The translations under genes and the position numbers were made by a program. Below the pieces are notes generated by a model. It had not been told where the DNA came from. It made no database searches and saw nothing but the letters and a program-made list of their open reading frames with translations. This document shows positions 360 to 61,944 of a DNA stretch of 64,000 nucleotides, in pieces (the first letter of the stretch is position 1; the number at the start of each line of letters is the position of its first letter). The stretch comes from Calliopum simillimum (lineage: Eukaryota > Arthropoda > Insecta > Diptera > Lauxaniidae): positions 53,501,061 to 53,565,060 of the forward strand of contig OX638369.1 of assembly GCA_951812925.1 (NCBI GenBank). Reading direction: 5' to 3'.

Positions 360-656
360 CGCCAATGTTAAAAAATAGTTAAAATATCAAATTTAAAGTT
401 CCAGAACTTTGCGAAATCCTTTTCAGTCCTATAAAACATATACACTATCTGAAAGCCCTTACAGTAAGCTAAAACTTTGCCGTGGAAATATTTTCTCAAA
501 ACGTTAGGGAGATCTAAGAAAATTATTTTCCTGAAACAAGTCAGACAATCAGCTTAAATCCTATAACTCCTCAGGTGTACATTTTAGACCCCACCTCCAG
601 GTGTAGTTTTTTGTTAGCCTAGGCTTCTTCTATCACTTTTCAGAAGCTTCGTAATC
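360..656 (+). repeat. Dispersed repeat R, copy 1
   Basis: This stretch shares long blocks with 6908-7135 and, in reverse orientation, with 3130-3425. Examples are the blocks around TACATTTTAGACC and TTTTTTGTTAGCCT followed by a CTTCTATCAC block. The copy ends at GTAATC where a foldback element begins, and its expected tail (ACCCTGTATAT) resumes near 1148. No open frame or terminal structure identifies the family. Confidence 0.6.
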
Positions 657-3129: not shown

Positions 3130-3425
3130 ATTTTAATGGATAGTACAGGATGTATTCTAAAGATTACAAAGCTTCCAGGAGGTGATAGAGGAGGCCTAGG
3201 CTAATAAAAATTGCACCTGTGGTGGTCTAAAATGTACATCTGAGGAGCTATACATAGGCTTAAAACTGATTTTCTGAATGGTTTAACGTAAAGATTTTTA
3301 TTGAATCAGCCTAGCCTTTTAGAGAAAATTTTTAGTATAAGAAACTTTTAGCTAATTGTATAAGCTTTCTAAGACTGTTTTTGGTTTGTTTGGTTTAAAA
3401 GGATTTCGCAAAGTTCTAGACATTT
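3130..3425 (-). repeat. Dispersed repeat R, copy 2 (reverse)
   Basis: Read on the minus strand this follows copy 1 and the copy at 6908-7135 block for block, including AAAGCTT, CAATTAGCTAAAAG, TACATTTTAGACCACC and GCCTAGGCCTCC. It directly precedes the DINE-1-like copy that starts at 3489. Confidence 0.55.
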
Positions 3426-3488: not shown

Positions 3489-5268
3489 CTAGTAAAGGTG
3501 TAACTTATGGCCTGGCCAAAAAGTAAATCCCCTGCATTGCAGTATTTTGAAAATTTTGCCCATATCGAAGGTGCCACGCCCTCTTGTCCGAGTTCACCCT
3601 GTTTTTGCTCAGAGCTTGCATTATAGTTCATATAGGGTCTGAGTGAAATTTGGTTTCCAGTATAGCGTCTTGAAGCTTTTGCTTAGATAGGAATTGACAC
3701 GCCCCACACTGCGTAGGCTAATGGGCAAAAATCAAAATTTTTTGTGACTCAAAACCTAAAAATATTGGTATCAGTCGACAGGTAATTGCATCAATAAAAA
3801 AAAACAAAATATGTAGGAGAACGACTCAGTTTTGGCTACGCTGTGACACTTCAAAGTTGAGATTTTTTTCAAAAAAAATCATGTTTTATTCAATTCGTTT
3901 TGGGTTCTCTTAAACAAATAATTATCAAAAATTTGTCTTTTGATTAAACTAAGCGAAGTAAAGATTTTTATTATAAATAATATTTGACTAAATAAATAAA
4001 AATAAAAAATTTTGGAAAATATATAATTTGATATATATTGTAGTGATTTTAATACATGATATTATCTAATGAAAAACTTCAAAAATTGACAAATTTCGAT
4101 GACAAAAAAAAACAAATCTTATAAAAATAAGTGCCGTTTTTTTTTTAATCTACTAGTACGGATTCTATAAAATCAAGAACTGCAAATAACTTTTCCTACT
4201 TCGTCCTACAAATATTTTTTTTCTTTTTTTAAAAAATGCTTAAAAGGAAAAATTTGCATGAAATATAAAATTTATGTTGAACATTTTTTTTTGTTTTTAT
4301 TAACACAAATGGTCTGAATAGTACAAAAAACATTATTTCTACTACGTATATTTCATTTGTTAACATTAAACAATACTTTTTCATCATCGTTATATATGGA
4401 GCTTAAGAAAATCGTCCTAAATACCTGGTTTTTAGCAAAACTTTAAAGTTCACAACAAATCTGAGATCATTTTTGAGCTCAGCGACCCCAAAATACTTAT
4501 AATACCAAATTTTATCGATATCTAACCACTCCTTCTATTTTTGACCATTCCTTGTATGGGCTCAACGCACTGTGCGCCCTCTTGTCCGAGTTCGTCTAGT
4601 TTTAGCTAAGAACGTGCGTTTATAGTCTTTCGGATTTGATTTGAAATTTAGCTGGATTATCTCAAAAAACTGTTTAAGTACAGCATTTTGAAAATTTTGC
4701 TTTTATGGGAGGTGCCACGCCCTCTTGTCCGAGTTCACTCAAATTTTGCTCAGGGCTTGCACCTATAATTTTTAGTGTCTGAGTAAAATTTAGTTCTATT
4801 ATCAAAAAAAAAAAAAAGCATTTTGAAGCTTTTGCTTATATGGGAGGTGCCACGCCCTCTTGTCCGAATTTGACTAGCTTTTTTTAAGCTTGCGCTTACA
4901 ATTCCTAGTATTTGCGTGTATTTTGATTGTATTGTCGTGAAAAATGCTCCTTAAGTTGCATTTTTAATATATTTTTTGTATGGGTGGTAGGCGTGTTCAT
5001 TGACCAATTTCGTTAATTCTCAATCCCACGAGCGAACTTTGACGACAAAGGCAGTGCATCAAATTTCATTGAATTATCTTGCTCAGTTTTACCAGAAAAT
5101 GTATTTCCACGCACACCCAGCCAGCCAGACAGACGGACATGGCTATATCGACTCAGGAGGTGACGCCGATCAAGAAAATACTTTTCCATATCTGCCACGC
5201 CTCCTTCTCTGCGTTACAAACGGAAGGAAAAAGTGAATATACCCTGCACCCAGGATATAAAAAGGTAT
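3489..5268 (-). mobile_element. DINE-1/INE-1-like Helentron, copy A (interrupted)
   Basis: The minus-strand head (near 5238-5268) has the TATA-CCC hairpin, followed inward by the reverse of CTTTGTCC..CCGTTTGTAACGCAGAGAAGGAGG, CTTGATC, CACCTCCTGAGTCGATAT, GCCATGTCCGTCTGTC and a short GGCTGGCTGG run. This order is that of the INE-1/DINE-1 family as I remember it. These are non-autonomous Helentrons that transpose by a rolling-circle-like process. Several internal blocks containing CCACGCCCTCTTGTCCGAG repeat at about 125-150 bp. The tail is ACTAGTAA. A CACAGTG-ended element (3705-4574) interrupts the copy. The family name comes from recall, not a search. Confidence 0.65.
3705..4574. mobile_element. 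Transib-like non-autonomous transposon, family A copy 1
   Basis: This is an 870-bp AT-rich element flanked by a perfect 5-bp duplication CGCCC (3700-3704 and 4575-4579). The termini are inverted: CACACTGCGTAGGC at the left and the reverse complement of CACAGTGCGTTGAGCC at the right. A second copy in opposite orientation lies at 60448-61328. The duplication falls inside the DINE-1 block CCACGCCCTCTTG, so the DINE copy is the older insertion. GC-rich 5-bp duplications and CACWRTG-type ends are the hallmark of the Transib superfamily. No transposase frame is present, and the superfamily call rests on ends and duplication only. Confidence 0.7.
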
Positions 5269-6246: not shown

Positions 6247-6604
6247 AAAAAAACTTAAAATTTCAACCTTAAAGGCTCAGAACTTTGAAAAACTTTCTCA
6301 AGCCCCATAAACTAAAACTAACTAAACTCTTAGAACTCGTAAGATTATAAGAATTTTTAAGTGTGTTACTTAATGACATTTATATATTGAAAATTAGTTT
6401 TTAATTGAACTTTTAGTCATTGCAAAGATCGATTTAAAGTTATTTGGGAGAACACGCTCTAATAAGGTAGCAAAACTTGCCACCGACCAATCGGTATTGA
6501 ATCTAATTCCAATGGAGTAGCTATACCATATTCATCAATTATGACATCACAAGGCTCACGTATTAACACACAAACAAAACTGGCAAAAGTCGGCTTCGCA
6601 GCCG

Positions 6605-6670
6605 GGCAAGGCTGGTGCGGTGGTAACGACTTGTGCTACCAACCGGGAGGTCCCTGGTTCAACTCCCGCC
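6605..6670 (+). ncRNA. tRNA-like Pol III promoter (SINE head)
   Basis: TGGTGCGGTGG at about 6614 resembles an A box (consensus TRGCNNAGYGG), and GGTTCAACTCC at about 6656 matches the B box (GGTTCGANTCC) with one mismatch. Spacing is as in a tRNA. It does not fold into a sound cloverleaf by eye, so it is tRNA-derived and not a functional tRNA. A run of five T at 6691 would be a weak terminator before the hammerhead. Confidence 0.5.
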
Positions 6671-6759
6671 CAGGCCAAAACACAAAAAAGTTTTTCAGCT
6701 TGCAATTTTTCAATTATAATTAATTTAGTGAAATAAATGTAATTATAATTACAACAAAA

Positions 6760-6806
6760 ATAGTCTGATGAGTCTTTGTGGCGAAAGACGAAACATATGT
6801 CACTAT
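6760..6806 (+). ncRNA. Type I hammerhead ribozyme
   Basis: All conserved core parts are present in order. Stem I 5' strand is ATAGT (6760-6764), then CTGATGA (6765-6771), stem II GTCTTT/AAAGAC (6772-6777 with 6784-6789, six pairs, loop GTGGCG), GAAA (6790-6793), a minimal stem III AC/GT around ATAT, and the cleavage triplet GTC (6799-6801). Stem I is closed by ACTAT (6802-6806), complementary to ATAGT. Self-cleavage would fall after C6801. The short stem III is like that of retroelement and satellite hammerheads, which often work best as dimers. The chance of this arrangement arising randomly is very small. Activity is untested. Confidence 0.88.
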
Positions 6807-6907
6807 AGCCGTGTTTTAATCCATTCCTTAATTTGCCATAACTATGTGTTAGAAAAATGCATTGATAGATTTATATGTAAATCGATCTTTGCAATGACTA
6901 AAAGTTC

Positions 6908-7135
6908 ACTCATACAATTAGCTAAAAGTTTTTCACAAAAAAGATCTCTCTATAACGTTAGGGTGACTCAAGAACATTTTTTTTTGTATAACAAGTCAGA
7001 AAATCAGCTTTTTGTCTATAACTGCTCAGAGGTACATTTTAGACCACCCCAAGGTGCAATTTTTTGTTAGTCTGGGCCTCTTCTATCGCCTCCCAGAGAC
7101 TTCGTAGCCTTCTGCAATGCACCCTGTATATGTAT
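6908..7135 (+). repeat. Dispersed repeat R, copy 3
   Basis: This shares the CAATTAGCTAAAAG, AACGTTAGGG, AAGTCAGA.AATCAGCTT, TACATTTTAGACCACC and TTTTTTGTTAGTCTGGGCCT blocks with copies 1 and 2 and ends in CACCCTGTATATG. Its 5' part probably lies at 6247-6400, across the inverted-repeat unit. Confidence 0.55.
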
Positions 7136-23558: not shown

Positions 23559-25091
23559 GATTTAAAGGAGAATACATTCATGCATACAATTTAATGACAC
23601 TCCGCAGTTTTTCATTTTTAATGACCAATTCACCGATTTCTGTAATTAAATTCGTGAACTTCTTATTTTCTTTTAAAATTACCTAATCAATAGACTGAAT
23701 AGTTGGTGAAGAATTTTGCACTAAAAACCAAAAAACAAACCTATTCCTTTGGCCACCTGCACATTATTCTGTTTTACTGACCAATAAAATTTCAAAGGAA
23801 ATTGCTGCATATTTCCTTTACTTCCTGAAGTCAACGCCGTTATCGTAAAGATATCAAATTAAAAGTTAGGTACCTCACTTTCATATTACGGACAGATGCA
23901 TGAAATGAAAATATTAACAAAGTACGGATCCAAATATCAGATGCTGGTCTCTACAAACAGACTCCAATGGATATGTAGCGGATACAAAAATATAACACTA
24001 AAATGTTCACGCAATGAACACCAAAATCCCCAAAGTAAAATGTGCATCATATCCTGTTCATCAAATGTATTAAATTTCATCAAAACGTTATTTTATTGAA
24101 AACTCGCAACTTAATCATAAAACCGTTGCATTAGTGGTCGGTCTTTCACCCAAAAATTAACTGTAAAATTGTAGATTTTTCAATTTGGGGATGAAATTTT
24201 TTGGTATTTACATTGAAATCAAAGTAGTAAGCCACACGCACTATTCACAGGGATAGTGGAGAACATCAAAAATAATAGACAAGGGCTCAATAAATTTGAA
24301 ACAGACAACTGCAATAACTTGCAGGATATCTACTCGTATGTAGGTATAAGTATAGTGCTTAGAAAGTGGAAGTAAGGCAGAAAAAAAAATTTATTTTTGT
24401 TTGATTTTCTATTCGTGGCGTAGGTGTACAGATGTACTACATCTCAAAGAAAACACAAAAAGGTGGTTTCATTATCGATCGTATCTATCCATGTATGTGT
24501 CTGTGATGATAGGGAGAAGTGTGCCATATGAAATTGTTGAAAGATTAGGTAGAGATTTGTTTGAAAAAATAGAAAAAAATCATAATTGCACCAGTGTAAA
24601 CTAACAATATGATTTTTCATGTGGCTTACATTACTTTAACTTAGTTCAATATGAGCTCTCGCTTTAATTACGAATCCTATCTGACTTGTTTGTTCATTCA
24701 ATCTCATTTTATTTTTCTGATGTAACTAATTTTCTGAAAAGAAAAACAAATGTTCATTTTACTTATCTGATAAAAGGAGGAAATTGTTGATCTAATGTGG
24801 AGAAAAGAAAATTACCTGTATCAAAATATATATATGGCGATGAAAACATACATAATTATTATGATGGTTCAATAAGATACAAAATGTTGTAGGTATACTA
24901 AAAAGTTTGAAGGAAACTGAAATATATTGGGTGTGTGCATTAATTTCCATCGTTTTTCAAAAGATGTCGCCATCAATACATGGTGACTTAAATTTTAGAT
25001 CAGAAACGTCATATCTGAAGCTTAGGCAACAACTCTGCATCATTAGATTTGAAAATTTGCATCTGCATCATGGATTTTACTGTGCTCCAAA
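23559..25091. other. No gene; possible mariner 5' end near 24928
   Basis: No recognisable coding sequence. TTGGGTGTGTGCATT at 24928 lies 164 bp before the mariner start codon and has the look and spacing of a mariner 5' terminal repeat, but I found no matching 3' repeat after 25742. Confidence 0.4.
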
Positions 25092-25742
25092 ATGTCCGAG
25101 TTCGTGCCGAAAAAGCAACATTTGCGGGAAGTTTTACTTTACTACTATATTTCAAAGAAAACAGCTGCCGAAAGTCATCGCATTCTTGTAAAAGTTTATG
25201 GAAACTATGCTCCAGCTGAATCAAGCTGTCGTGAGTGGTTTCGACGGTTTAAAAGTGGTGATTTTGATGTCGAAGACAAAGAACGTCCTGGTCAGGACCA
25301 GCTGGGTGTGATCCATTATGAGCTGTTGCCAGGTGGCCAAACCATTAATGCTCAACTCTATCGTCAACAATTGATCCAATTGAAGCAGAAAATCCAGGCA
25401 GAGCGGCCAACGTATGCCACCAGACACGAGTCAATCATTTTCCACCACGAAAACGCTCGGACACATATTGCTGCCCCAGTCAAAAATTACCTGGAAAACA
25501 ACGGATGGGAAATTTTGCCTCACCCGCCTTATAGCCCAGACCTTGCACCATCATACTACCATTTGCTCCGATCGATGCAGAATGCCCTATCAGGAATACG
25601 CTTCACTTAAGTTCAAGATATCGAAAATTGGCTCGATTCGTTTTTGGCCGCCAAGCCGGCGCAGTTTTTCTGAGATGGAATCCATAAATTGCCATAAAGA
25701 TGGGAAAAAGTAGTGACTAGCGATGGGCAATACTTTGAATAA
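25092..25742 (+). pseudogene. mariner transposase, internally deleted and catalytically dead
   Basis: The N-terminal helix-turn-helix region is intact (FVPKKQHLREVLLYYY through WFRRFKSGDFDVEDKERPGQ), then jumps near residue 67 to DQLGVIHYELLPGGQTINA. Roughly 130 residues that include the first catalytic Asp are missing. In the C-terminal half the second and third Asp of the D,D34D triad are replaced: HHENARTH has Glu for Asp, and PDLAPSYYH has Tyr for Asp, with exactly 34 residues between. After the first stop (25608-25610) the same frame continues as VQDIENWLDSFLAAKPAQFF to YFE at 25742 with two further stops. About 214 sense codons remain of about 345. Confidence 0.92.
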
Positions 25743-34960: not shown

Positions 34961-35268
34961 CGTTGCTTCCGCTTGCGTACACAACTCGCTTTTAATTCAC
35001 GCTTGCTTTTGAACTTTTATTTAGTTTTTGTTTTTCTTTCGGTTGATTTTTTTTGTTTTAATATTTTGAGATACAAAAAAAAAAAAAACATGAAATGAAC
35101 AAACCGAAATAATCGAGAAAAATTGTGTAAAGTGAAAACAAAAAAAGGATAATAAGAAACTTTGTGCTCAATAAATAAAAAAAAAAAAAAATTGCAAGAG
35201 ACGAAAAAACTCTAGAAGAGTTTTAAAAAAATTAATTTAAAATTAAAAAAAAACTGTGTTCACCCACC
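34954..35268 (+). other. Predicted esg 5' UTR
   Basis: An A-rich leader with several poly-A runs ends at CACCCACCATG, which has A at -3, a good start context in insects. The start site is inferred from the TATA box. Confidence 0.5.
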
Positions 35269-37017
35269 ATGCATACGATCGAGGACATGCTTGTGGAGAA
35301 AAACTACCACAAATGTCCTTTGAAAAAACGCCCAGTAAATTATCAATTTAATGATCCTGTCGAGCATGCGCCATCCGTCGAAAGCAAAGAAAAACTCACC
35401 AACGATCAGCCAGAAAATCTCAGCCTTAAAAAGGATGCTAACGACAACACCAACATCACCACCACAAGCCCCGACAATAGCAACAACTCCGAGGATATCA
35501 ACGTCAGCGATTGTTGTGAGGATGAAGGTGTCGATGTTGATGATCATCGCACTGACGACGATGAAGATATGGATGGAGACATTGATTGCGATGATGACGA
35601 AGATGATGAAATGATCGATTGTGTTGATATTGATGATGCTGATATTGATGGCAATAGTACAACTACTCAAGCTGCTGCATTGGTTGCCGCTGCTGCTGCT
35701 GCCTCGGCTGCTTCAGCTGCGGCGGCCGCTAGTTTGGTTGTGCCAACACCCACCTATCCAAAATATGGCATACAGCCATGGAATTTTCATATGTCACCAT
35801 ATACAGCGGAATTCTATCGCACCATTAATAATCCACATCTTGCTGCTGCAACACAAATATCACCGCTGCGCGGTGATTTGCTATCACCCAGTTCACCATC
35901 CGATTCGATTGGTTCACTTTCACCACCACCGCCACATTATATGCATCATGGTCGTGCTAGTTCGGTGTCACCACCAATGCATGCCGAAATCATACATCGT
36001 CCTATCGGTGTCCGACAGCTGCCACCACAATCACCATCATCGCATCATCAACACCAACATCAACACCATCGTTTTATGCCTTATCCAACGCTACCGCCTG
36101 CTTATGCGCAGCATCATCATCATCCGCATCATTCCGCGCAGACGTCATTGTATCCTTTGAGCTATCATCCTGGTGCGCCACATCCAGCATTGGCGCCACA
36201 TCATCATGCACCAATATCACCCGCTTACTCTGACTCTTCATACTATTCGATGCGATCGTTGACGCCTGAATCGAATTGCTCATCTTTGCCGGAGGATCTT
36301 TCGCTGAAGCAACACCAACAGCCTGTTATAAGCGTCAAATCGAAATCAACACTTTCGACTGCTGTGCCATCGATGGATTCATCATCGACCAGCGTCATTA
36401 AAATGTGCAACACAGCGCCTACAGCAGCAGCATCCAACGGAGGGGGCTCCTCAAGCAATACATCAAGCTGCAAAAAGGATAAAAATTCACCGCCACGTTA
36501 TCAATGTCCTGATTGTCAAAAATCTTATTCGACTTTTTCGGGCCTAACAAAACATCAACAATTCCACTGTCCAGCCGCTGAGGGTAATCAAGTGAAGAAG
36601 TCCTTTAGCTGCAAAGATTGTGATAAAACCTACGTCTCACTGGGTGCTCTCAAAATGCACATACGCACGCATACGCTACCCTGTAAATGCAACATTTGCG
36701 GCAAGGCATTCTCACGTCCCTGGCTTTTGCAAGGGCACATACGCACGCATACGGGCGAGAAACCTTTTAGCTGCCAGCATTGTCATCGCGCTTTCGCCGA
36801 TCGTTCCAATTTACGCGCTCATCTGCAAACACACTCGGACATCAAAAAGTACTCGTGCACCAATTGCTCAAAGACATTTTCACGCATGTCACTGCTGACA
36901 AAGCATTCGGAAGGTGGTTGCCCTGGTGGCAATGGCAGCAGCAGCAGCGTTTCACCAATAGTTGGCAGCAACTCCAGCGACATGAGTAGCTACAGCGCTA
37001 TGTACGCTGAACATTAG
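35269..37017 (+). CDS. esg: Escargot, Snail-family zinc-finger transcription factor
   Basis: Nuclear DNA-binding repressor that recognises CAGGTG-type E-boxes. In Drosophila it maintains diploid imaginal cells and stem cells and acts in neural, tracheal and wing development. The 582-residue, single-exon protein starts with the conserved Esg box ([13 protein letters not shown], then [12 protein letters not shown], residues 1-27). It has two CtBP-type motifs, PENLSLK (48-54) and PEDLSLK (341-347), an acidic stretch (84-127), an Ala run (135-154), [13 protein letters not shown] (175-187), [10 protein letters not shown] (241-250) and His/Gln-rich segments (258-315). Five fingers follow: C413/C416/H429/H433, C448/C451/H464/H468, C474/C477/H490/H494, C502/C505/H518/H522 and a C2HC finger C530/C533/H546/C551. 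Finger sequences are almost those of Drosophila Esg, not Snail or Worniu. The Drosophila protein is about 470 residues, so the spacer has expanded here. No frameshift or stop is present. Minus-strand frames overlapping it are artefacts of CAT/GAT repeats. Confidence 0.98.
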
Positions 37018-59726: not shown

Positions 59727-61944
59727 TGGGGACACCATTATTCCAATAGCCATAAATAGCCTCACGTCCATAATCGAGAAGGCTTTGGCGGACAAGAAAG
59801 TAGGCCTCTGTGCATCTATTGACACACACGGAGCCTTTGACAACACGTCTTTTGAGTCAATTTTGGAATCATTGATTAGAAAAGGAATACCCGAAATGAT
59901 CATTGATTGGGTCCTCAACATTCTGAAAAATAGGACAGTCATCTATGACGCGGTACAGAAGACTAACTGTGAGGACAACTAAAGGATGCCCCCAGGAAAG
60001 CGTACTGTCACCGCTCTTATGGATACTAGTCATCGACGAACTACTAGCAATTCTCGATGATCACAATTTCGAGGTCACTAAGGACGTGCCCGATGGTAGC
60101 TCTAGGCATGCTTATGGGACACACTCCTCTTCACCTTATGGTTAAGAAGGAAGTAGTCTGTGCGGCCCTCAGACTGCATCATTTAGAACAATTTAAAGAA
60201 GACAATCTAACAGGTCATGTCGAAATCCTGGATGTATTTTGGGACACATCGTGTCTTTCGGTCTCCGATAAGTTAGGTAAAAAGTTTGTTTTCTCTAGAA
60301 AATTCAAAGTGGTAATCAATTACATGTAAAACAGGGCTCACAGCCATGGTTCACTGATGGGTCGAAAATGGAAGATGGCAGCGCAGGAGCTGGAGTTGTG
60401 GGACCAAGATTCCAAAAAGCAATACAGCTTCCATTTTTCAGGCGGAGCACAGTGCGTTGAGCCCATACAAAAAATGGTCAAAAATAGAAGGAGTGGTTGG
60501 ATATCGATGAAATTTGGTACTTTAAATAATTTGGGGCTGCTAAGCTCAAAAATGATTTCAGATTTGTTGTAAACTTTATAATTTTGCTAAAAACCAGGTG
60601 TTTAGGACGATTTTCTTAAGCCCCATATGTAACGATTTTTTTATTTATCTTTAAAATATGTGTTTTTGTAATATACGTAGTAGAAATAATGTTTTATGGA
60701 CTTTTGAAACTATTTGTTTTAATAAAAACAAAAAAAAATTTTCAACATAAATTTTATATTTCATGTAAATTTTTCATTTTAAGCATTTAAAAAAAAAAAA
60801 AAAATTATTTGTAGGACGAAGTAGGAAAAGTTATTTGCAGTTCCTGGTTATATAGAATCCGTACTAAAAGATTAAAAAAAACGGCACTTATTTTCATAGG
60901 ATTTGCTTTTTTTTTTTTTTCATTGAAATTTGTCAATTTCTGAAGTTTTTCATTTGATAATATCATATATTTAAACCACTACAATATACAATATATTAAA
61001 TTATATTGTATATTTTCAAAAATTTTTTAATTCTATTTATTTACCTAAATATTATTTATAATAAAAAACTTTACTTCGTTTAGTTTAATGAAAACACAAA
61101 TTTTTGATAATTATTTGTTTAAGAGAACCCAAAACGAATTGAAGAAAACATAATTTTTTTTGAAAAATATCTCAACTTTGAAGTGTCACAGCGTAGCCAA
61201 AACTGAGTTTTTCCCCTAAATATTTTGGTTTTATTTTATTAATACAATTACCTGTCGATTGATACCAATATTGTAAGGTTTTCAGTCACAAAAAATTTTG
61301 ATTTTTGTCTATGGGCCAACGCAGTGTGCGGAGGTCCACGCTTTAAAGTTGTACGCCAGAGAATGTCTAAGAAGGGGCGCTTCCGGCACCGACACACACA
61401 TTTATTCGGACAGTTTAGAAACTCTAAAATCACTAATGGCTTTTTCAATGCACTCAAAGCTTGTCTAGGAGTGTTTTGAATTTCTTCAAGCCCTATCCAG
61501 GAGGAATGAAGTAACTCTAGTTTGGATACCAGGGCAGACTGCTTGGCCAAGAGAGGCGCACTCAATACTTTCATAGGCCCGGAACCCTTCTGCGGAGTAA
61601 ACAACAGTTTTAAAAATAACTTAATACGGAAATGGGAAAAGAAAAGCCTCTCCGATCACTGGAGAGCCCAGGAAGGTATGCGACAGGCGAAGAGGCTGAT
61701 CGATCCAAGACGAATTAAGGTAGAAAAGATATAAAACGTACAGTAAAAAAATGAGAGGTCACTGTAAACTCAATTATCATCTAAAAAAGATGGGTTTGGT
61801 AGACGATGATTCCTGTAAACTCTGCTTAGAGGACTCGGAAACAGCGGAGCATGTGTATGTACTTGCCCCACTACGGTGAGACGCAGAGTAAGATACCTAG
61901 TTGCCGAGATTTTAAATCCAAATGACATAGGTAAACTTAATGCC
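59727..61944 (+). pseudogene. RNase-H-bearing non-LTR retrotransposon remnant
   Basis: Frames give, in order: DTHGAFDNTSFESILESLIR (RT), KGIPEMIIDWVLN, TTKGCPQESVLSPLLW, a degraded YADD region after HNFEV, then a deletion to LHHLEQFKEDNLTGH; FTDGSKMEDGS (first RNase H motif); FQAEVHALKLYARECLRRG, spanning an inserted element; SDSLETLKSL; VTLVWIPG; and a C-terminal zinc-knuckle-like stretch CKLCLEDSETAEHV. RT plus RNase H places it among I-group elements (I, LOA, Outcast-like). Frameshifts and stops are many. The 881-bp element at 60448-61328 splits the RNase H domain. Confidence 0.8.
60448..61328. mobile_element. Transib-like non-autonomous transposon, family A copy 2
   Basis: The 881-bp element, reverse-oriented to copy 1 at 3705-4574, is flanked by the perfect duplication CGGAG (60443-60447 and 61329-61333). 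The ends are CACAGTGCGTTGAGCC and, inverted, CACACTGCGTTGGCC. Removing it with one CGGAG restores the RNase H frame locally (FQAE followed by VHA), which fixes the boundaries exactly. It is AT-rich and non-coding. Confidence 0.8.

Follow-up and report, generated by a model that had tools for sequence, protein, structure and literature searches.

Introduction

The locus examined here raises a double question, namely whether a hammerhead motif in the genome of the fly Calliopum simillimum is a genuine self-cleaving RNA and, if so, what kind of repeat carries and moves it. The motif lies in the window, by which we mean the whole stretch of 64,000 nucleotides that was analysed. Animal non-LTR retrozymes had insects among the hosts named in 2020, with TSDs of more than 4 bp, according to the accessible part of the source (PMC7229834), and the available portion of a review of the same year presents animal retrozymes as devoid of promoters and of a motif revealing their driver (PMC7761336). 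We estimate at roughly 0.68 the probability that the motif belongs to a retrozyme-like SINE of C. simillimum, non-coding and 541 bp long, whose movement depends on a Penelope-type enzyme. What the sequence itself shows is the anatomy of the ribozyme, the repeated copies, the covariation between the two families, the phase of the units, the TSD-like repeats and two clusters of ends. If true, the carriage of such a SINE by Penelope-type copying would identify the driver still lacking for animal retrozymes.

Anatomy of the hammerhead and chance expectation

All the hammerhead elements named by the sequence-only reading were found in place by inspection at positions 6760-6806 (Table 1), and the pairing layout bears out both the type I assignment and the minimal stem III that it had proposed. 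The conserved core CUGANGA, GAAA and NUH is present around three helices, stem III counting two pairs, and hammerhead chemistry places the expected cut 3' of the GUC triplet. Beyond 6760/6806, stem I extends through a 1-nt spacer, the GCCG and an outer stem of 4+4 pairs with a single mismatch (C6752 x U6816). A kissing contact is predicted between this GCCG of the stem I internal loop and the UGGC of loop II, with 96.1% of the cells paired in alignment A1 and 93.8% in alignment A3. This contact goes beyond the earlier claims, as do the rival assignment to type III, the head resembling a tRNA and the 541-bp host retroelement with its head-to-head and tandem copies.

Table 1. Coordinates of the features discussed in the text (window positions)
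Feature	Position	Strand	Description
Whole window copy	6349..6908	+	Inverted tail, body and truncated tail (head-to-head); from alignment to the genomic unit of L015
Inverted copy of the element's 3' tail	6349..6436	-	Accounts for the perfect 31-nt inverted repeat 6406-6436/6878-6908
tRNA-like head	6606..6678	+	A-box-like TGGTGCGGTGG 6613-6623, B-box-like GGTTCAACTCC 6656-6666
Outer stem I, 5' strand	6748..6756	+	6753-6756 pairs with 6812-6815; 6748-6751 pairs with 6817-6820
Type I hammerhead ribozyme	6760..6806	+	Inner stem I, CUGAUGA, stem II, GAAA, minimal stem III, GUC
Inner stem I AUAGU/ACUAU	6760-6764/6802-6806	+	5 bp
CUGAUGA core	6765-6771	+	
Stem II GUCUUU/AAAGAC	6772-6777/6784-6789	+	6 bp
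Loop II GUGGCG	6778..6783	+	UGGC 6779-6782 able to pair with GCCG 6808-6811
GAAA	6790-6793	+	
Stem III		+	Two pairs, A6793-U6800 and C6794-G6799; loop AUAU
GUC triplet	6799-6801	+	
Predicted cleavage after C6801	6801..6801	+	GUC|A; from hammerhead chemistry and sequence
Internal-loop GCCG and outer stem I, 3' strand	6807..6820	+	GCCG 6808-6811; outer stem 6812-6815 and 6817-6820
Truncated 3' tail, direct orientation	6878..6908	+	
Older unrelated repeat beside the element	6909..7128	+	Other copies 3144-3364 (minus) and 460-653 (plus)

A descriptor scan of both window strands returned this site only. Against a null of first-order Markov DNA with the composition and dinucleotide statistics of the window, a loose descriptor matched 40 times in 1.61 Gb of simulated DNA on one strand (0.003 expected per 64 kb, both strands), and a strict descriptor (stem I of at least 5, stem II of at least 6) matched once in 1.61 Gb (0.00008 expected per 64 kb, both strands). 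The rarity of the strict form and the covariation between families make a chance resemblance practically negligible; in its favour speak the sub-threshold Rfam scores and the folding of the 47 nt alone, which is no better than that of shuffles (z 0.02).

The Rfam-level score to which the sequence-only reading had looked did not materialise: no Rfam family reached its cut-off in the window, the best being RF00008 with 32.4 vs 48.5 bits. Five loci tested among the relatives were all under the cut-off as well (RF00163, 21.5-21.7 vs 34), and an Rfam type I search of the genome yielded 0 among the 73 scored of 75,100 candidates, 14 control genomes likewise giving 0. Such a cut-off is an annotation threshold that lies outside the biological definition of a hammerhead. 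The weak fold and the low scores probably result from the two-pair stem III and the AU-rich stem I. Since the loci of the relatives also fall short, we take the Rfam models as too strict for this form; with a sub-cut-off score and a shuffle-level fold, the ribozyme would thus be missed by routine annotation. We conclude that the motif looks like a genuine type I hammerhead, and the ribozyme is presumably functional.

As a separate observation, a translation made by eye shows a short reading frame that starts at the AUG of CUGAUGA (from window position 6768, near unit 337) and runs across the ribozyme. The reading frame of anole Penelope likewise starts at stem II (PMC11167929), and the frame seen here is possibly a trace of Penelope ancestry.

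Type I versus type III

The RF00008 match, which is the top Rfam match and spans positions 6734-6799, raises the alternative of a type III hammerhead with an open stem III (6734-6740/6793-6799) and a cut after A6741, all the more as type III motifs are published for other dipterans in the accessible text of PMC7936874. This reading is very unlikely in our view. It requires a G6739-C6794 pair, whereas position 6739 is an A in 77 of the 85 aligned rows, a gap in 7 and a G in a single one, which is the window copy itself. RF00008 reaches just 24-28 bits in the other copies matched, and both families retain the cut triplet of the type I form together with the GCC and most of stem I. The type III reading was rejected because G6739 occurs in the window copy alone among the 85 rows, so that the closed stem I and paired open stem III of a type III hammerhead do not hold across copies, and because both families preserve what marks a type I hammerhead.

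Copies in the genome and their conservation

The proposal that the type I hammerhead sits in a dispersed repeat is confirmed. Queried with the ribozyme, the 690-Mb genome, in which the window occupies C2:53501061-53565060, gave at least 41 matches with the best 40 of 58 candidates scored, i.e. at least 40 of useful length (89-100% identity) and a further one of 25 nt. A query with the ribozyme-free body met 2001 candidates and gave at least 46 matches (best 40 of 2001 scored). Among the 30 body-query loci fetched, 28 align across the ribozyme region, so the ribozyme is a part of the element and not a search artefact. Four of the 37 family-1 alignments there have the ribozyme partly or wholly deleted (one each in L046, L055, L064 and L067).

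Over all fetched loci, the intact descriptor is satisfied by 34 of the 81 ribozyme sites of family 1, and 27 are identical over 42 nt. The 81 sites are what remains of 86 model matches once three that belong to family 2 and two partial, weak matches are removed; body-query loci alone give 11/36 and 8/36, respectively. Substitutions relative to the family majority, counted on 58 alignments from 29 body-query loci (alignments of at least 60 nt and at least 76% identity only), amount to 2.40% in the ribozyme (68/2834), 4.41% in the body (449/10188) and 3.67% in the tail (215/5857). Gaps are commoner in the ribozyme (4.93%, vs 1.55% in the body and 3.05% in the tail). The effect is mild and does not support the idea that inserted ribozymes are under strong purifying selection; the copies, by these counts, mostly drift once inserted.

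These figures bear on the view that the retroelement is real and its ribozyme a relic devoid of current activity or role, which would be compatible with the best explanation of the origin of the copies. The limited share of sites passing the intact descriptor, in the whole set as in the body-query loci, speaks for a relic, as do the only mildly higher conservation of the ribozyme over its flanks and the fact that insertion by anole Penelope needs no cleavage (PMC11167929). We consider it unlikely, however, as the 27 sites identical over 42 nt include some in copies that are 85-89% identical overall (e.g. L041), and as a compensatory change is seen in family 2.

A second family and covariation

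A related element, referred to as family 2, lies close to two family-1 copies in L058 and L061. It shares the loop GUGGCG and GAAACAUAUGU with family 1 but has a stem II GGUUAC/GUAACC and a stem I GGU/ACC. It is located at L058:160-944 and L061:155-237 and has its own tRNA-like head. As two cases of family 2 turned up fortuitously beside copies in the 69 fetched loci, it may be common.

Covarying copies, whose absence was to refute the earlier reading, are found: the copies are many and five pairs are changed on both sides in the second family, but none of the 25 pairs is so changed within family 1, because its copies are too alike. In alignment A3, whose 12 rows were hand-picked and from which the first stem II pair was omitted (misaligned in family 2), the five doubly changed pairs between families are reached by 2 of 500 shuffles and the 10 cells by 0 of 500, further pair types not being unusual (110/500 shuffles). 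When partners are slid, pairing falls from 93.8% to at most 55.3%. The covariation is one split between the families, not many independent events. Within family 2, the outermost pair of the inner stem I is lost (U x U), the outer stem is out of register and the core contains one or two extra bases ahead of stem II, so that this family may be a variant or partly decayed. Rfam gave no hammerhead match on the family-2 loci at E up to 0.5.

Structure of the element

The unit, defined from a tandem array at L015, is 541 bp long, starts with AAAGTTATTTGG, ends with AAAAAATTCTT and repeats in phase; the array has inverted units at its left, and a 15-bp repeat (AAAGAAAGCATAATT) is found around the whole. 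The GC content of the unit is 0.327. Neither of its strands holds a reading frame for RT + GIY-YIG, the longest stretch without a stop being 107 codons, and the element would therefore be at most a non-autonomous Penelope passenger. The boxes of the tRNA-like head, which we take to resemble the A/B-box consensus, stand at unit 182 and 225, and no tRNA was called in this head by ARAGORN or Rfam. T runs at unit 260 and 275 precede the ribozyme and could end Pol III transcripts before it is reached. Finally, the tail contains an AC-rich hairpin (UUAAGU-AACAC-ACUUAA) located between two clusters of ends, and the same hairpin or a close variant is predicted in 40 of the 49 aligned tails, the folds having been counted manually.

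Judged by its alignment to the unit (L001 1112-1199 minus for unit 541-447, and 1199-1671 plus for unit 1-482; a looser alignment puts the right end at about 6918), the window copy is a truncated head-to-head insertion with a ribozyme that is intact in sequence. No TSD is evident for this copy. Its perfect 31-nt inverted repeat could evoke a DNA transposon (MITE) with terminal inverted repeats, in which the hammerhead would be incidental. Such an origin is highly improbable, since the inverted repeat results from a tail that was duplicated and inverted, with no DNA transposase required, whereas other copies have a direct, tandem or single tail and a variable 5' truncation. Fixed terminal inverted repeats do not recur across copies and the DNA-transposon reading was rejected. 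The unrelated repeat beside the element is old and dispersed, with about 75% identity between copies.

Insertion ends and the probable driver

Copies of the retrozyme-like SINE occur single, tandem or head-to-head. In L003, L015, L050, L052, L056, L057, L059 and L062 the tandem pieces follow one another in phase (541->1), the exceptions to phase being L063 and an internal duplication in L015. In-phase multimers combined with free 5' truncation imply that the template ran past one unit, as a circle or a multimer.

Ends and TSDs were counted on the largest group of pieces per locus in 66 loci, i.e. the 69 minus L028, L040 and L047, which are repeats of others; in L017, L030, L036 and L037 this group differs from the one with the query match. 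The right edge of L066 is the end of the fetched stretch, and this edge was dropped from the end counts, which leaves 65 loci seen whole. Template 3' ends are found on both outer edges in 33/65 loci and on one edge in 32/65 (34/66 and 32/66, respectively, with L066 included). The 3' ends (n=99) comprise 32 at unit 536-541, 48 at 481-520 and 19 in neither cluster, all ends being BLAST-defined, the 481-520 cluster being broad and partly set by BLAST clipping, and the cut-offs having been picked post hoc. The two edges of a copy tend to differ: among the 33 double-ended copies, 20 pair an end at 535 or beyond with an end at 470-520, 4 have both ends at 470-520, 9 have other combinations and none has both at 535 or beyond. 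For this last class, 3.9 are expected by shuffling (p 0.002, or p 0.003 with L066), a p value of 0.002 that is unchanged at cut-offs 530, 535 and 538, for classes that were set after viewing the data.

TSD-like shared words of at least 10 nt are present in 13/66 loci vs 1.84% of mismatched flanks, and those of at least 12 nt in 10/66 loci vs 0.44%. The words are 10-19 bp long; in L019, L034 and L064, which count among the 13 positives, the word consists of an A/T run or extends into the end of the element itself. By this shared-word measure, 53/66 loci have no TSD. Among 32 outer 5' ends, none falls at the cut site (unit 371) and one falls at 364. Two single cases were noticed besides: one inner junction of L059 begins at unit 371, and one arm at L043:1408 stops at unit 368, at a distance of two bases from the expected cut.

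The same ribozyme SINE might alternatively be moved by a LINE, e.g. of Jockey or RTE type, its head-to-head copies being produced by twin priming. tRNA-like heads are typical of LINE-dependent SINEs, the 10-19-bp TSD-like words are compatible with such a driver, and the junctions are A-rich, 12 of the 14 right edges located at unit 541 having AAA next to them. This alternative is nevertheless doubtful, as LINE twin priming leaves the template 3' end on one side only whereas both outer edges are template 3' ends in the 33 loci counted above. Moreover, a tail bounded by two sites and folding into an AC-rich hairpin is what has been reported as the signature of Penelope (PMC11167929). The signature of the insertion ends points to Penelope-type copying, and the question of the driver can be tested in one genome.

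With a Penelope-type enzyme as the mover of the SINE, the genomic copies would be transcribed and the hammerhead would cut the multimeric transcripts after GUC into unit-length RNA, to be ligated into circles or to stay multimeric. A Penelope-type reverse transcriptase/endonuclease would nick AT-rich DNA on both strands, and each nick would prime inward copying that begins at either of two start sites within the RNA (around unit 481-520 and at 541). Short TSDs and truncated 5' ends would be expected to follow, along with head-to-head copies and tandem multimers. In this scheme transcription, cleavage, circularity and Penelope as the driver are what we infer from the features of the copies. Its most detailed version, in which a self-cleaving SINE with tRNA-type boxes is copied by a Penelope-type RT that primes both strands on one multimeric or circular RNA, with the edges using different start sites, is tentative and we would give it less than even odds.

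When the Penelope enzyme of the anole was purified, it cut both strands of AT-rich DNA and extended both, with synthesis starting at two positions inside the RNA on either side of an optional 30-40-bp 'tail' with an AC-rich stem-loop (PMC11167929). The enzyme has no start-site difference between strands and inserts RNA in vitro without ribozyme cleavage (PMC11167929). As cleavage is dispensable for this insertion, the ribozyme may serve trimming or circle-making and not insertion itself.

Comparison with known systems

The element resembles the animal non-LTR retrozymes of Cervera & de la Pena 2020 (PMC7229834), which in the accessible part of that paper are non-coding, multi-copy, tandem-capable and low in GC, with a type I hammerhead. 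What defines a retrozyme, a type I hammerhead in a non-coding, tandem-capable repeat with TSDs, is found here. In contrast to the retrozymes described there, the element has a tRNA-like head, head-to-head copies and the end signature, and its unit of 541 bp exceeds the reported range of about 170-400 nt (PMC7229834, same portion); for this length we call it retrozyme-like and do not file it as a member.

Anole PAc Penelope shares with the element a hammerhead in the RNA, tandem units and AT-rich targets, and its two internal start sites, its 30-40-bp tail and the extension of both strands resemble the end clusters reported above (PMC11167929). Unlike Penelope-like elements, the element has no RT/GIY-YIG frame, and its two edges favour different sites. 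Besides, Penelope hammerheads are described as minimal, without helix III or loop-loop contacts, in the available portion of PMC7761336, whereas a kissing contact is predicted here. A SINE-like repeat with a type I hammerhead is also known as SMalpha in Schistosoma, where the host is different and no tail signature appears in the accessible description, the likeness being one of description and not of sequence (PMC8490949).

Delta-virus-like hammerheads of toad and termite agents combine a 5-bp first stem I, a GCCR internal loop, a 6-bp stem II and a YGGC loop, according to the part of PMC7936874 available. The same portion reports a similar architecture in Drosophila pseudoobscura and more fly cases in Rhagoletis, Musca and Hermetia (PMC7936874). 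The 6-bp stem II, the YGGC loop and the GCCR after the 5-bp stem I on the cleaved strand are common to these hammerheads and to ours. They are, however, of type III, with a closed stem I and an open stem III, whereas the present one is of type I with a minimal stem III (PMC7936874, accessible text). Likewise, the genomic hammerheads of termites are reported in that text as isolated motifs, whereas the present one resides within a defined element (PMC7936874). The kissing-loop design is shared with delta-virus-like agents and bears on the origin of their ribozymes. If the most detailed version of the Penelope scheme holds true, the ribozyme would be a type I permutation of the delta-virus-like architecture and a candidate cellular source of the ribozymes of such agents. 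A search of viral contigs for the same core-loop pattern gave 0.

A literature search that left subscription papers largely outside returned no earlier description of the element; dipteran hammerhead work was announced as 'in preparation' in the available part of PMC7936874 and may have appeared since. Four features were not seen in the literature examined and are apparently new: the presence of this anatomy in a fly, the head resembling a tRNA, the signature of two end sites and a delta-like hammerhead of type I.

Other features of the window

Unclassified dispersed repeats are dense in the window, as exemplified by 3702-4578 and 60444-61331, which are 86% identical over 900 bp. Positions 25053-25607 (+) hold a Mariner/Mos1-type transposase fragment (HTH_48, 70.2 bits; Transposase_1, 43 bits). 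Finally, a zinc-finger reading frame of the Escargot/Snail family occupies positions 35266-37014 (+) and is 67% identical to its counterpart in Stomoxys and 66% to that in Musca vetustissima, in agreement with the assignment of the DNA to a fly.
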